Origin: Arcticibacter svalbardensis MN12-7
GTDB taxonomy: Bacteria; Bacteroidota; Bacteroidia; Sphingobacteriales; Sphingobacteriaceae
Assembly: GCF_000403135.1 (NCBI RefSeq)
Contig: NZ_AQPN01000076.1
Location: forward strand, 1-42,120
Direction: 5' to 3'
Length of the DNA: 42,120 nt
The position numbers and the translations under genes are program-made. Numbering within the stretch: position 1 is the first letter of the stretch; every line of letters begins with the position of its first letter. The notes beneath the pieces are model-generated. The model was not told the origin of the DNA. It saw only the letters and a program-made list of their open reading frames with translations, and ran no database searches. Of the stretch, positions 36,540-41,406 are shown in pieces.

Positions 36540-37016
36540 TTATAAATCCAAATTGATCTGTCTTTTAATGCTTTCTTCAAGTGATATAAAGGTCTCTGTA
36601 CGTTGAATTCCCGGTACAGATTGAATATGATCGTTTAATACTAACCGAAGATGGTTGGTATCGCGACAAATAATTTTAGCGAACATGCTCCAGGCACCTG
36701 TAGTATAATGCAACTCCACAATTTCCTTTATATTCCGCAACTTTTCTACTGCATCTTTATAAGTTGATCCCTTTTCAAGGTAAATGCCTAGATAAGCACA
36801 AACATCATATCCGATTTTTTGTGCATCCACTAATAGGTTTGACCCTTTTATTATACCCAGATCCTGCATTTTTTTCATCCTCACATGAATGGTGCCACCC
36901 GAAACAATCAGCTTTTTCGCTATCTCTGTATAAGGGATTGTTGCATCTTCCATAAGGATTGACAGAATCTGCATATCCAGATTATCAATTTCTAAATTAA
37001 GGCTCTTCTTTTCCAT
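36540..37016 (-). CDS. Lrp/AsnC-family transcriptional regulator
   Basis: A 158-residue DNA-binding regulator with an N-terminal winged helix-turn-helix (residues about 10-65: IPYTEIAKKLIVSGGTIHVR as the HTH) and a C-terminal RAM ligand-binding domain (about 70-150: GYDVCAYLGIYLEKG, VVELHYTTGAWSMFAKII). It probably responds to an amino acid and forms dimers or octamers. It diverges from the tRNA-like gene and the sulfur-carrier operon, so these are candidate targets alongside its own promoter; that is inference from position only. Confidence 0.92.
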   Translation of the reverse strand: MEKKSLNLEIDNLDMQILSILMEDATIPYTEIAKKLIVSGGTIHVRMKKMQDLGIIKGSNLLVDAQKIGYDVCAYLGIYLEKGSTYKDAVEKLRNIKEIVELHYTTGAWSMFAKIICRDTNHLRLVLNDHIQSVPGIQRTETFISLEESIKRQINLDL

Positions 37017-37092: not shown

Positions 37093-37125
37093 TTTGCAAA
37101 AATACCGAATAACCTGCTATATTTG
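37093..37125 (+). promoter_or_regulatory. canonical Bacteroidetes promoter of tRNA-like gene
   Basis: TTTG at 37093-37096, 21-nt spacer, and TATATTTG at 37118-37125; both boxes match the consensus exactly. The tRNA-like sequence begins 35 nt downstream. Confidence 0.7.
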
Positions 37126-37160: not shown

Positions 37161-37268
37161 TGTAAGGTGGTGAAATAGGCAGACACACCTCCTTGTCTCG
37201 GTGGTGGAGATCATGGGAATCCGGAAACGGTTAACCACTCCTTGGAGGTTCGATTCCTTCCCTTACAG
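37161..37268 (+). tRNA. atypical class II tRNA (Leu-like body, GUC at anticodon position)
   Basis: Folds as a cloverleaf: acceptor TGTAAGG/CCTTACA (extendable by a C-G pair to the discriminator), U8, D stem GTG/CAC with an 11-nt loop containing GG (the tRNA-Leu pattern), anticodon stem CCTCC/GGTGG (one U·U mismatch) with loop TTGTCTC, a 39-nt variable region (37205-37243) with outer GGAG/CTCC and an inner CCG-GAAA-CGG hairpin, and T stem GGAGG/CCTTC with loop TTCGATT. The triplet at 34-36 is GTC, nominally Asp, at odds with the Leu-like body; the discriminator is G, not the A that leucyl-tRNA synthetase prefers. CCA is not encoded. A consensus promoter and a terminator flank it, suggesting expression. 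Amino acid identity is unresolved; a degenerate tRNA-Leu copy is the alternative. Confidence 0.75.
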
Positions 37269-37306
37269 CTCCTTTCAATAATTTAGGTTTATAATTGGTT
37301 AGTTTG

Positions 37307-37336
37307 AGCTTCCGCCCATCGGAAGCTTCATTTTTT
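37307..37336 (+). terminator. terminator of the tRNA-like gene
   Basis: AGCTTCCG/CGGAAGCT with a 5-nt loop, then a run of T (about eight), 38 nt after the tRNA-like 3' end. Confidence 0.85.
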
Positions 37337-37651
37337 TTAATACCTTCCAAACCGCGATTCTCTTCAATCATTTTTGTAAAAAGTTCAAAGGATAATCATT
37401 TCTCCTTATTTCACACTTTTATACAAAAGTAAGTAAATCCAATTCTCACCTCATTGATCTACGAAACAAATACTGTAAGTTTATGTTGAAAATTGAATTC
37501 TACTAACATTTAATTCTTAATAAAATTAACGTAGAATTTCAACATAGATTAATAAAATAATTAAAATTTGATATGCAGAGAATCATTATGACAACATCGA
37601 GAGTCGTTAATAAATTCCTTTAGCGGGGTAATTTAATAGTACATCATTTTT
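37337..37651. other. 315-nt leader/intergenic region of the sulfur-carrier operon
   Basis: No ORF or RNA gene recognised. It contains a long imperfect inverted repeat at 37483-37545 (listed separately) and a direct AT-rich run up to the ATG at 37652. No consensus -7 box was found close to the start codon. Confidence 0.5.
37483..37545 (+). repeat. imperfect inverted repeat upstream of SDR gene
   Basis: The left arm at 37483-37503 and the right arm GTAGAATTTCAACAT (37531-37545) pair over 15 bp if six bases in the left arm are bulged; the loop itself holds a smaller TTAAT/ATTAA repeat. It lies 107 nt before the SDR start codon. Could be an operator, an RNA leader structure or a mobile-element remnant. 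Confidence 0.5.
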
Positions 37652-39070
37652 ATGAATACTAAAAACATGTATACAAATTCTTCAATTTTTGAGAAAATAT
37701 GGGAATTGTCTCCTAAACTGCACTTACCAGAATCATACTCAGAACTCCTGAATTTAACAAAACAGCTAATTGAACTATATAATGCTGATGGTCGACTGGA
37801 TGAAAATCCATTTTTGCCTACTACAAAGAGAAAATTAAGCTTGCCTGTAGTTGAAATAAACGATTTGTTAAAATCAAGTACTTGCATTGTTACAGGAGGA
37901 TTGGGATGCGTAGGCAGCTGCCTGGTAAACAAATTACTGGATTTCCAAATCAGCAAAATAATTGTTATAGATAAAAAACCTTTTAATGATAAAAAAAATA
38001 CTAGTAATAACAGAGTAGAATATGCTCAGGGAGACATTTGTAATTCGGATGAATTAAATGAAATTTTTGCAACCTACAAACCTGAGTTCGTATTTCACAC
38101 CGCAGCTCAGCGCGATCCTGGTTTTGCTGAAAATCATATTTTTGATGCTGTAAACATAAATGTTATAGGAAGCTGGAATGTGGCGAAAGCTTGCGAAAAC
38201 ACACCTTCAGTAAAACAATGTGTCTTTTCATCTACTGGCAAATCGAGCAGGTATTATACAGACGAAGTTTATTCTGCTACCAAGAAAATATGTGAATTAG
38301 TATTTGATACCTATGCCCGACGTAGTGCGGTACGCTATTCAATAGTTCGATTTACTCATATTCTGGATAATAGCCTGATGGATATTGAATTTCAAAACGC
38401 CAGAAATGAAGATCATCTTTCTATCCACAGCCCTGGAAAGTATGTAACGGCCCAGAACGTTCAGGAAGCAGCTGACCTGATGCTGAACGCCTTACTCCAT
38501 TCCTCTCCCGGAAAAGCTAATTTTTTAATTGTACGAAACCTCGAATGGCCAGTTGAAAGTCTGGAAGTCGCCCTGTATTACATTAAAGAGGCCGGTAGCT
38601 TCATCCCCGTCATTTTTAGGGGAAACCCACCAGGATACTCCGAAAAATTCTTTAGAGGACAAATGGATTGGTCTCATCCCCAGGAATTAAATTTGCTGAT
38701 TAATGTATATGAATGCAATGACAAATCATACAACGAAGAGGGTGATATTATCATCTCGCATGTTTGTCCTGTAGATGAAGAGATTCTTCTGGAGTCCCTC
38801 ACTCGTATTAAAAATACCGAGGGAGAAAATTGCTCCAAAGTACGGTTACTTACTGAACTAAAGGTTCTTGTACGGGCCGCATTAACGAAAGTAGATAAAG
38901 GAGTAACTTTTAAAATTTTAGAATGGGGACTTAAACCTCAATATTTAAAAGCAGAGGGCACTACTATTGCTCATTATGGTCCCACTGTTTCTTTGTTGAT
39001 TGAAAGTTTGGAAGATTCTGAATATTCTGAACTGATAAAAGATTTAATAGAAGAAAAAGATATTTCTTAA
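37652..39070 (+). CDS. SDR-family epimerase/dehydratase-like protein with unassigned extensions
   Basis: A 472-residue cytoplasmic protein. Residues about 1-68 form an unassigned helical segment. Residues about 69-325 are an extended short-chain dehydrogenase/reductase of the NAD-dependent nucleotide-sugar epimerase type: nucleotide loop CIVTGGLGCVGSCLVNKLL, an acidic end to the second strand (IIVIDKKP), TAAQRDPGFAE, and the catalytic Tyr-x-x-x-Lys in VYSATKK. The last ~145 residues (from GQMDWSHPQEL) match nothing I recognise; they include a YxxC segment and HVCPVDEE. It leads the operon containing JAMM, ThiS-like and MoeZ-like genes (23-nt gap), so it may make or use the sulfur acceptor. 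Substrate unknown. Confidence 0.8.
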   Translation: MNTKNMYTNSSIFEKIWELSPKLHLPESYSELLNLTKQLIELYNADGRLDENPFLPTTKRKLSLPVVEINDLLKSSTCIVTGGLGCVGSCLVNKLLDFQISKIIVIDKKPFNDKKNTSNNRVEYAQGDICNSDELNEIFATYKPEFVFHTAAQRDPGFAENHIFDAVNINVIGSWNVAKACENTPSVKQCVFSSTGKSSRYYTDEVYSATKKICELVFDTYARRSAVRYSIVRFTHILDNSLMDIEFQNARNEDHLSIHSPGKYVTAQNVQEAADLMLNALLHSSPGKANFLIVRNLEWPVESLEVALYYIKEAGSFIPVIFRGNPPGYSEKFFRGQMDWSHPQELNLLINVYECNDKSYNEEGDIIISHVCPVDEEILLESLTRIKNTEGENCSKVRLLTELKVLVRAALTKVDKGVTFKILEWGLKPQYLKAEGTTIAHYGPTVSLLIESLEDSEYSELIKDLIEEKDIS

Positions 39071-39093
39071 CCCCGATTTGAAAATATACAGGT

Positions 39094-39527
39094 ATGGCAA
39101 ACTTTAACAAATTGATCATAGAAGCGGATCCCTGGTCAGTAATGATTGAAAGTGCTGTACGTACATTTCCGAATGAATGCTGTGGTTTTTTTTTGGCCTT
39201 CAGGGAGCACGGGAAGATGATGTAAAAGTTGCTTTGGAAGTTAAAAATGATGAGGGTTTAGAAAAGCATCGGTATTTTAAAATAAATCCGTACGACTATA
39301 TGAAAGCAGAACAATACGCTGAAGAAAATAACCTAGCATTGCTGGGAATATATCATTCCCATCCCAATCAGCCGGCATTACCTTCTCCAGATGATAAGCA
39401 GTTTGCTTTGCCGAATATTTCCTATCTCATTATCTCCGTATCCGGAAAAGACATTTTAGAACCTAAATGCTGGCAGCTAGATGAAGAACAAATATTTCAA
39501 GAACAAATTATAGAAACGTTGATATAA
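39094..39527 (+). pseudogene. JAMM (Mov34/MPN/PAD-1, Mec+-like) metallopeptidase, frameshifted at T9
   Basis: Frame 1 opens at ATG 39094 and reads to FPNECCGFF before running out of frame at 39186-39194, ending at TAA 39223-39225 (43 codons). The other frame continues from the same T run (GLQGAREDD…) to 39527. If the run were T10 instead of T9, one 144-residue JAMM protein would result with the full zinc motif: Glu28, His88-Ser-His90, Ser98 and Asp101 (HSHPNQPALPSPDD). The order, spacing and length match CysO-peptidase Mec+. The frame break separates Glu28 from the zinc ligands. It may be a sequencing error, a recent mutation or a slippage-dependent gene. Role: trimming the adjacent carrier protein, or releasing its cargo. 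Confidence 0.85.
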
Positions 39528-39553
39528 AAATAAAATACTCTCAAAAAAAACAT

Positions 39554-39835
39554 ATGGCTACTGTTATCATTCCAACCCCCTTAAGGAAATTTACTGGCAA
39601 TTCAGCTAAAATTAATGTTTCAGGAAACGATGTGTCTGAAATTATTGCCAATCTTGTACATCAATACCCCGATGTACAAAAACATCTTCTTGATCCAAGC
39701 GGCTCTGTTCGCTCGTTTATTAATGTTTTCGTAGATGAAGATGATATACGAAACCTACAGTACAACCATACACACGTAGAAACACGTTCAGTTATCAGTA
39801 TTGTACCAGCCATAGCAGGCGGAAATTTAATTTGA
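39554..39835 (+). CDS. ThiS/MoaD-like sulfur carrier protein
   Basis: A 93-residue ubiquitin-fold protein like CysO/MoaD: TVIIPTPLRKFTGNSAKINV at 3-22, INVFVDEDDIRN at 56-67, and ISIVPAIAGG at 81-90. The di-glycine is at 89-90 but is followed by Asn-Leu-Ile, whereas active carriers end exactly at Gly-Gly. The tail must therefore be removed before adenylation by the downstream MoeZ-like protein; the JAMM gene just upstream is the natural candidate. The gene is 26 nt after the JAMM stop and 6 nt before the MoeZ-like start, so it is in one operon. As a thiocarboxylate it would donate sulfur to an unknown acceptor. Confidence 0.9.
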   Translation: MATVIIPTPLRKFTGNSAKINVSGNDVSEIIANLVHQYPDVQKHLLDPSGSVRSFINVFVDEDDIRNLQYNHTHVETRSVISIVPAIAGGNLI

Positions 39836-39841
39836 TCACCA

Positions 39842-40999
39842 ATGACTCAGAATACACTATTCTCTAAAGAAGAGCTGGCGCGATACAATCGCCATATTAT
39901 CATTCCTGGTTTTGGCATGGAAGCTCAGGAAAAATTAAAGAAATCAAGCGTACTGGTAGTGGGTGCGGGTGGTTTAGGCAGTCCTGTTCTCTTGTACCTC
40001 GCTGCAGCTGGCGTAGGCCATATCGGGATTGTGGATTGCGACGTGGTCGATGACAGTAACCTGCATCGGCAAGTCCTGTTTGGCATAGAGGAAGTCGGCA
40101 TTCCGAAAACGGAAGCGGCAAAAAAACGACTGTTATCTCTAAACCCACATATTACTATTACTGTATATAATACGCAGCTGACCTCTCAGAATGCCATGGA
40201 AATTATAGGTGGTTACGATGTTGTTGCTGATGGCACTGACAATTTCCCTACCCGGTATCTAGTAAATGATGCCTGCGTGTTGCTTAATAAGCCAAATGTG
40301 TACGCTTCTATTTTCCAGTTTGAAGGGCAGGTTTCGGTGTTCAATCAGGTAAACGAACAAGGCGTACGAGGTCCCAATTACCGGGACTTGTTCCCAACTC
40401 CTCCCGATCCCGGAGCTGTGCCTAATTGTTCGGAAGCTGGCGTACTAGGTGTTTTGCCCGGAATTATTGGCAGCCTTCAGGCATTGGAAGTCATTAAGGT
40501 GATTACCAACGTAGGGGACAGTCTGAGTGGTCGTTTTTTTACATTTGATGCCCTTAGTTTTGAATCCAGAACTTTCAATATCAGCAAAAATCCGGCTAAC
40601 CCTGTTAACGGAGAAAATCCGACCATCAAAGAATTGATTGACTATGAACAATTTTGCGGCGTTAAAGCTATTGAAAAGCCACTTAAAGAAGTAAGTCCTA
40701 TAGATTTGCAGGATTGGCAGGAACAGGGCTTAGATTTTCAGATCATTGATGTGCGCGAAGCGGATGAGTATGATTATGTGAATATTGGAACGGAATTGAT
40801 TCCGCTTTCTACCATAAGTGTTCTGGGAGGTACTATTGACAGGAATACGAGGGTAGTAGTGATGTGCAAATCAGGTATGCGCAGTGCCAAAGCCATCCGT
40901 ATTCTGGAGGATAAGTATGGTTTCAATAATCTGTATAACCTCGAAGGAGGGATTATTAATTATATCAATGAGCTGGAATTAGATCTTCCTACTTATTAA
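39842..40999 (+). CDS. MoeZ-like E1 adenylyltransferase-rhodanese fusion
   Basis: A 385-residue two-domain protein. Residues 1-~250 are a ThiF/MoeB E1-like domain: ATP loop GAGGLG at 41-46, DGTDNFPTRYL at 130-140, and the catalytic Cys196 in VPNCSEAGVLG. Residues ~285-380 are a rhodanese domain with active-site Cys342 in VVMCKSGMRSA. It adenylates the carrier's C-terminal Gly and passes sulfur from the rhodanese persulfide to give a thiocarboxylate. The MoeB zinc cysteines (CxxC before and after the catalytic Cys) are absent: NYRD is found where CYRC is usual, as in mycobacterial MoeZ. The linker ELIDYEQFCGV also matches MoeZ. The gene is complete. Confidence 0.93.
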   Translation: MTQNTLFSKEELARYNRHIIIPGFGMEAQEKLKKSSVLVVGAGGLGSPVLLYLAAAGVGHIGIVDCDVVDDSNLHRQVLFGIEEVGIPKTEAAKKRLLSLNPHITITVYNTQLTSQNAMEIIGGYDVVADGTDNFPTRYLVNDACVLLNKPNVYASIFQFEGQVSVFNQVNEQGVRGPNYRDLFPTPPDPGAVPNCSEAGVLGVLPGIIGSLQALEVIKVITNVGDSLSGRFFTFDALSFESRTFNISKNPANPVNGENPTIKELIDYEQFCGVKAIEKPLKEVSPIDLQDWQEQGLDFQIIDVREADEYDYVNIGTELIPLSTISVLGGTIDRNTRVVVMCKSGMRSAKAIRILEDKYGFNNLYNLEGGIINYINELELDLPTY

Positions 41000-41118
41000 A
41001 ACGTCCTGTATTAATCTGACGAGCAATTAATATCGGTTGTAGATTTTGTATCTAATTGGAATGCGTATGTGTACCTTTATTCATTCCTTTATACAAATTG
41101 ACATCTAATACAAATAGC

Positions 41119-41406
41119 ATGTTTATTATAGATTTGATTTATAAAGTATCAGCCGAAGAGGTTGATACTTTCCTTGAAGCGCATAAAAAATATCTTCAGG
41201 AGAATTACGACAATGGAAACTTTAATGTCTCTGGTAGAAAGAATCCAAGAATCGGTGGGATAATTCTGGCTAAAGGTAACAACCGGGAGCTCATTGATCA
41301 TCTGATCTCTTCTGATCCATTCAAAATAAATAATATTGCAGCATATCAGGTAACAGAGTTCATCCCTACCAAATTTGCTAAGGAGTTTTCTTTCTTTATC
41401 AGTTAG
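41119..41406 (+). CDS. YciI-family small protein
   Basis: A 95-residue cytoplasmic protein with the YCII/DGPF ferredoxin-like fold: FIIDLIYKVSAEEVDTFLEAHKKYL at the start, then SGRKNPRIGGIILAKGNNRE and a helical end (LIDHLISSDPFKINNIAAYQVTEF). The family has a conserved His-Asp pair that is thought to be catalytic; here HKKYL and SDPF are in place. The ORF opens at 41056, but ATG at 41119 gives the normal length. It follows the MoeZ-like gene by 119 nt and may not belong to the same transcript. Confidence 0.8.
   Translation: MFIIDLIYKVSAEEVDTFLEAHKKYLQENYDNGNFNVSGRKNPRIGGIILAKGNNRELIDHLISSDPFKINNIAAYQVTEFIPTKFAKEFSFFIS

Follow-up and report, generated by a model that had tools for sequence, protein, structure and literature searches.

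A conserved tRNA-like RNA family with a very long variable arm in Bacteroidota and its possible part in asparagine synthesis

A non-proteinogenic tRNA-Gly serves cell-wall synthesis in Staphylococcus. It is similar to the RNA described here in that, as we propose, a tRNA would work in a biosynthetic route and not at the ribosome; the amino acid, the body and the pathway are different, and no evolutionary tie is claimed. In Deinococcus, Thermus and Bdellovibrio, asparagine synthesis is tRNA-dependent, a non-discriminating AspRS and GatCAB acting on tRNA-Asn (excerpt of PMC4206432). The same excerpt reports 18 genera, including Bacteroidetes, which have AsnRS, GlnRS and GatCAB and no asparagine synthetase, and for which tRNA-Asn is taken as the likely carrier (PMC4206432). 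The RNA family analysed here shares with this route U1-A72, a G73-bearing body that we propose to be charged with Asp, GatCAB, AsnRS, and, in some of the genomes, the lack of an asparagine synthetase. The carrier here would, however, be an RNA distinct from tRNA-Asn, with a giant variable arm, an anticodon loop of Asp type and linkage to AsnC, and the route would do without a special AspRS. In case of E. coli, AsnC is described in an excerpt of PMC8707732 as a local activator of the divergent gene asnA, damped by asparagine. The arrangement is alike here, where an AsnC-type regulator is divergent from a gene proposed to supply asparagine, but the divergent gene is asparagine synthetase A there and an RNA here. 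Moreover, the selC* tRNA-Cys and the allo-tRNAs are natural RNAs with unusual bodies and long variable arms (excerpt of PMC7609411); their acceptor or anticodon stems are lengthened, in contrast to the 7/5 acceptor branch and 5-bp anticodon stem found here. With class II tRNA-Leu, which has A73, the RNA has in common the D arm and the geometry of the variable arm, whereas it carries G73, U1-A72, an Asp-type loop and a variable arm of at least 39 nt. Amino-acid synthesis on a tRNA is already known; we regard the RNA family as a variant of that kind and the function proposed for it as bold.

Layout of the RNA gene and its AsnC-type neighbour

The window, the whole stretch of DNA analysed, comprises 42,120 nt from Arcticibacter svalbardensis MN12-7. 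A permissive search over 351 bases gave a match to the Rfam tRNA family RF00005 at exactly 37161-37268 on the plus strand; it scored 35.6 bits, above the gathering score of 29. This RNA was missed by ARAGORN and by a whole-window Rfam scan at the gathering threshold. The features of the locus are as follows.

36540-37016, minus strand: gene for an AsnC-type (Lrp/AsnC family) regulator, divergent from the RNA; Pfam PF01037 and PF13412
37093-37125, plus strand: promoter of Bacteroidetes type, TTTG (37093-37096), 21 nt, TATATTTG (37118-37125)
37161-37268, plus strand: tRNA-like RNA, based on the RF00005 match, family alignments and covariation
37161-37167, plus strand: 5' side of the acceptor stem with U1 and G2, pairing with 37261-37267; G73 at 37268
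37170-37186, plus strand: D arm with stem GTG/CAC, G18 and G19 kept
37188-37204, plus strand: anticodon arm CCTCC-TTGTCTC-GGTGG, loop at 37193-37199, GUC at 37195-37197, C38 at 37199
37206-37241, plus strand: variable arm with stems GGAG/CTCC and TGG/CCA, a GAA/TAA internal loop and a GAAA-capped hairpin
37244-37260, plus strand: T arm GGAGG-TTCGATT-CCTTC
37269-37305, plus strand: trailer with AGGTTTATAATTGGTTAG (37285-37302), kept across genera of the window's family
37306-37337, plus strand: intrinsic terminator, a hairpin with a T run

The acceptor stem has 7 bp and the T and anticodon stems 5 bp each, and an 8/5, 8/4 or 9/3 acceptor branch as in tRNA-Sec or allo-tRNAs is absent. Between the anticodon and T stems lie 39 nt (37205-37243), and the geometry is Leu-like in the D arm and in the spacing of the variable stem, which has one nucleotide on its 5' side and two on its 3' side. 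The initial annotation had already read from the letters a Leu-like class II body whose anticodon position holds GUC, a discriminator G, and a variable region of 39 nt with a GAAA-capped inner hairpin, framed by a promoter and a terminator; all of these were confirmed, the framing signals being TTTG/TATATTTG and 37306-37337. Across the copies the variable arm is built of two stems, of 4 and 3 bp, and in most cases a GAN/UAA internal loop, which we take to be the UAA/GAN motif, and its tip is a short tetraloop hairpin in the window versus a larger insert elsewhere, often with GGGTYGACCAC.

The promoter is preceded by TTAAAATA, which is common to asnC-linked and unlinked copies. Two paralogues of 92% identity are located on another contig of the same genome with the same trailer and promoters of their own, and these copies unlinked to asnC are extra paralogues. 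In addition, GTTCTTTAAC-like stretches occur between promoter and RNA in several leaders (L015, L023, L088, L096 and others); they resemble the boxA element of rRNA leaders, and such a leader would suit strong, rRNA-like transcription.

The best PDB match of the window regulator is E. coli AsnC (2cg4, 4e-34), the next being at 4e-21. An AsnC homologue adjoins the RNA divergently in 62 of the 88 loci of a first set, in which some places were fetched twice. Among the 119 matches listed from a DNA-pattern search, an AsnC-type gene is present at 68 named loci (45 of the first 80), with 50–66% identity, and is divergent in 68/68, 121–278 nt from the nearest RNA. There is no AsnC-type gene in the flanking DNA examined at the other 51 of these 119 loci; the 35 without it among the first 80 belong mainly to Saprospiraceae, Cyclobacteriaceae and similar groups. 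No neighbour other than AsnC recurs widely at the loci examined, and reading a function from such neighbours was therefore dropped; a sub-group (16 of 80 loci among the matches listed) has the gene of an AMP-binding enzyme on the downstream side. In the window itself, a downstream operon (37652-41406) encodes epimerase-like, JAB-domain, ThiS-like carrier, ThiF-rhodanese and YCII proteins, which we take to recall the CysO/Mec+/MoeZ sulphur-carrier route to cysteine.

Structural support and spread of the family

BLAST matches were found in 24 of 60 relatives, the source genome counted, and all 24 are among the 37 genomes of the window's taxonomic family; there are up to seven matches per genome, and G009 carries a tandem array. 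From 41 sequences of the window's family a covariance model, R1, was built. It finds the RNA in many genera of this family and, among 395 sampled genomes of the phylum, also in the six families f15, f25, f27, f29, f30 and f68, with lengths of 110–171 nt. The R1 tallies of 301/301 and 351/395 are not prevalences: hits about 84 nt long that scored less than about 60 bits were regarded as ordinary class II tRNAs. A DNA pattern derived from a distant form matched at least 119 stretches, and the titles of all 119 listed matches are Bacteroidota, judging by their names. They include Chitinophaga, Niabella, Ferruginibacter, Saprospiraceae, Algoriphagus, Cyclobacterium, Fulvivirga, Flammeovirga and others, with environmental strains such as Chitinophaga pinensis, Niabella defluvii, Algoriphagus and Cyclobacterium among the matches listed. 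R1 matched in all 119 listed stretches, 157 times in total, the longest match being 210 nt, and the length range of the family across Bacteroidota is 108–210 nt. The family was not found in the library or in the openly licensed literature searched, which does not by itself establish its absence from print.

In the 41 family sequences, nine pairs changed on both sides, a number reached in 0 of 500 shuffles. In an alignment of 114 distinct rows, which was fitted to the model and so leans towards structure, 98.2% of the cells are paired versus 49–60% for slid controls, double changes occur in 17 of 29 pairs, and the 286 double-changed cells compare with a shuffled mean of 59 and with 4–36 in the slid controls. 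The folding energy of the single window sequence is ordinary (z 0.01). The anticodon stem is invariant in the window's family (CCTCC/GGTGG with a U-U mismatch), and its covariation comes from other families, where CCCTC/GGGGG, CCCTC/GAGGG, CCGTC/GACGG, CCCGC/GCGGG, CCGCC/GGCGG and CCCCC/GGGGG are found. The covariation over the 114 distinct rows thus indicates that the cloverleaf is real, anticodon stem included. This is a real, conserved family of tRNA-like RNAs with a very long extra arm, and the earlier idea of a specialised tRNA with genuine stems is borne out by the covariation; the model keeps the same anticodon register, and the stems are conserved in the relatives.

The anticodon arm of the window also contains ACACCTCCTT (37186-37195), which matches the anti-Shine-Dalgarno 3' end of 16S rRNA in Bacteroidetes; a search for ACACCTCCTTTC in the organism's own assembly gave no hit. 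An anti-Shine-Dalgarno mimic was considered, and it is judged to be chance, with CCCTC/GGGGG, CCGTC/GACGG and other stems in other families.

Frozen positions and co-occurrence with GatCAB

Conservation was counted in 112 distinct full-length copies, 78 from the window's family and 34 from outside, the latter taken from the loci that scored highest with a model trained on the window's family. This choice favours similar copies, and some of the 34 come from the same species as the named loci. U1-A72, G2-C71, U35, C36, C38 and G73 never vary (112/112), and position 34 is G in 109 of the 112 copies and changed in three. Position 33, in contrast, drifts outside the window's family (T 22, A 6, C 3, G 3; n = 34), whereas all 78 distinct copies of that family have U33 with GUC. 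Position 37 is a pyrimidine in 107/112 (T 63, C 10 and G 5 among the 78), and pair 10-25 is G-C within the window's family and A-U or U-A beyond it. The matches listed supply 149 distinct copies of full length, of which 148 have U1-A72 and all 149 have G2-C71 and G73; these copies were left out of the anticodon-loop counts because the pattern itself fixed those bases. According to an excerpt of PMC9976931, aspartate identity consists of G73, G34, U35, C36 and C38, helped by G1-C72 and G2-C71, and G1-C72 is strictly conserved in bacterial tRNA-Asp and said to aid AspRS. Bacterial GatCAB recognises U1-A72 (excerpt of PMC4206432). In the source genome U1-A72 starts tRNA-Asn, which also has G73, and tRNA-Gln, whereas G1-C72 starts tRNA-Asp, and an ordinary tRNA-Asp is thereby present in addition to the RNA. 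The counts and the published determinants together mean that the positions read by AspRS and GatCAB are frozen while position 33, needed by the ribosome, drifts. As an elongator tRNA-Asp the RNA has the AspRS determinants and lacks G1-C72 (U1-A72 in 112/112); as a tRNA-Leu it lacks the discriminator A73 (G73 in 112/112). The initial annotation had considered charging by LeuRS or SerRS, which is unlikely, the frozen positions being those that AspRS reads. Misreading of Asp codons, its other concern, is unlikely for the family at large, given the variable position 33 of the copies beyond the window's family and the pyrimidine at 37 in 107/112, and keeps some force in the window's own family, which retains U33.

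GatCAB presence was scored by GatB, which is present in the source genome. RNA presence in the class was accepted at E 3.2e-11 or better in the phylum sample, plus G050 (1.1e-9 there; 81 bits elsewhere). Of the 98 genomes of the class in this sample, 35 have the RNA, and GatB is present in 35/35 of these; 57 of the 63 RNA-less genomes are without GatB and six have it (G055, G391, G409, G469, G517 and G682), which gives a Fisher p of 1e-20 with no correction for phylogeny. Outside the class both are present in three genomes of f68, and GatB without the RNA is found in many genomes of other classes. Within the 37 genomes of the window's family, 22 have both, one has the RNA only (G031), nine have neither and five have GatB only, namely G013, G015, G027, G028, and G017 with a truncated RNA counted as broken (p 1.4e-4, or 5e-5 with G017 as present). 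No AsnC orthologue was found in G013, G015, G027 and G028. In an AspRS tree of 20 genomes the GatB-negative family members fall on one weakly supported branch, so the co-loss in this family may be a single event. Further RNA-less and mostly GatB-less lines are the f25 genomes G338 and G432 and a block of f22, f26, f28, f31 and f32. In the same tree the AspRS from G021, a genome without GatB, clusters at 100/100 with that of G057, which belongs to another family; AspRS may have been replaced there alongside a change of the asparagine route.

The nine family genomes without RNA and GatB keep the AsnC orthologue, and the adjacent tRNA domain is gone or reduced, as judged by eye and with R1. Promoter and trailer remain upstream of asnC without the tRNA domain in five loci (L269, L270, L272, L273 and L274), only an acceptor/T-arm minihelix with the trailer is left in L268 and L275 (g6 genomes), and nothing is recognisable in L267 and L271. 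The truncated copy of G017 (L283) lost the T arm and the 3' acceptor side by deletion. The tRNA domain thus seems dispensable once GatCAB is gone. The trailer with AGGTTTATAATTGGTTAG and the terminator (37269-37337), together with the promoter, outlast the tRNA domain in five genomes, and the trailer is perhaps a small RNA of its own. Because the trailer persists without the tRNA domain, part of the transcript should have another role; pairing of its TGGTTAG with CTAACCA of the variable arm was dropped as the reason for conservation, as the trailer is kept in genomes which have no tRNA domain.

With respect to asparagine supply, AsnRS is over the cut-off in 58 of the 60 relatives, with fragments in G014 and G028, and since AsnRS is present GatCAB is not needed for Asn-tRNA in the relatives. 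AsnA occurs in two of the 60 (G021 and G043), both without the RNA. No AsnB-family protein is over the cut-off in eight of the 23 RNA-bearing family genomes (G002, G003, G005, G009, G014, G023, G029 and G033), of which G014 is only 71% and G003 87% complete, and none in G037 outside the family. The other 15 of the 23 have an AsnB-family protein of about 600–680 aa, which could make asparagine. In the source genome such genes lie among glycosyltransferases and one is interrupted. Short AsnB frames (563–578 aa) occur in 10 of the 60 genomes, that is, in 10 of the 16 without GatB and in 0 of the 44 with it.

A rule reportedly from work on Pseudomonas ties AspRS discrimination to residues 31 and 83, and S. 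aureus is an exception to it. Tried on 20 genomes it was uninformative, with RDLG in 18, RDKG in two and K in the second motif in all 20; the pattern is alike with and without GatB, and thus these residues neither prove nor exclude discrimination.

Proposed function and alternative explanations

We consider it rather probable that the RNA is a non-decoding tRNA for asparagine synthesis, which would receive Asp, have it converted to Asn by GatCAB and be controlled by AsnC. The proposal draws on features established from sequence, that is, the conserved family, the frozen determinants, the drifting position 33, the AsnC linkage, the co-occurrence with GatB and the asparagine synthetase unrecognised in part of the carriers; from these we infer expression, charging, amidation, release and AsnC control. 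AspRS would read G34, U35, C36, C38 and G73 and charge the RNA with Asp, GatCAB would read U1-A72 and amidate the bound Asp to Asn, and Asn would be released or handed on, by hydrolysis or by a further enzyme; we know of no enzyme for this release step. The long variable arm may organise the complex or bar the RNA from translation, and by analogy with E. coli, AsnC would raise its transcription at asparagine shortage. This would allow a discriminating AspRS, together with AsnRS, to keep translation faithful and asparagine still to be made on the RNA. Several findings weigh against this model: U1-A72 is present here versus G1-C72 in bacterial tRNA-Asp, G031 has the RNA and no GatB was found there, some genomes have GatB only, and an AsnB-family protein is present in 15/23 carriers. 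The fit of the long variable arm into AspRS is assumed. In its stronger form, to which we give about even weight, AspRS, the RNA and GatCAB would constitute an RNA-based asparagine synthetase, switched by AsnC and producing free asparagine, in Bacteroidota which have no dedicated protein asparagine synthetase.

It is possible, though we think it unlikely, that this is instead a regulatory RNA of an AsnC regulon, whose tRNA-like domain senses Asp or Asn via charging or GatCAB binding and whose trailer or variable arm acts on targets, asparagine being made elsewhere, for example on tRNA-Asn. The AsnC linkage, the trailer kept in the five genomes without the tRNA domain, and U1-A72 with G73 in the organism's own tRNA-Asn are in line with this. 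However, the loci read from other families have no such trailer, the occurrence of the tRNA domain follows that of GatCAB, and a carrier would better account for several copies in a genome, each with its own promoter. A less probable explanation is that the charged and amidated RNA donates Asn (or Asp) to a lipid, a peptide or the end of a protein and no free asparagine is formed; tRNA-dependent transferases exist in bacteria and no releasing enzyme is evident, but no transferase recurs beside the RNA at the loci examined, and asparagine supply is what the AsnC linkage and the missing asparagine synthetases suggest. That the RNA is a tRNA-Asp of unusual class II shape which reads GAC and GAU in translation would be in line with GUC and U33 in the 78 family copies, and it is very improbable in view of the ordinary tRNA-Asp already present, the loss of U33 in 12 and the change of position 34 in three of the 34 outside copies, the pyrimidine at 37 and the replacement of G1-C72 by U1-A72. 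A decaying or pseudo tRNA-Leu, as the initial annotation had allowed, can practically be dismissed despite the Leu-like D arm and variable-arm geometry and the decayed forms L283, L268 and L275, since the stems covary, the frozen positions extend across families, the promoters are conserved and the same ends occur in 112/112 distinct copies.

The RNA family is added to genomes in which it escapes standard tools or receives a poor tRNA score from them. If the RNA-based asparagine synthetase is true, it would explain why GatCAB is retained despite AsnRS, and despite GlnRS as reported for some genera, and it would tell how Bacteroidota with AsnRS and without a recognisable asparagine synthetase make asparagine. 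The RNA would then be a tRNA for metabolism and not for decoding, in which identity elements of a synthetase and of an amidotransferase are joined, and how a misacylated intermediate stays off the ribosome would become directly testable.
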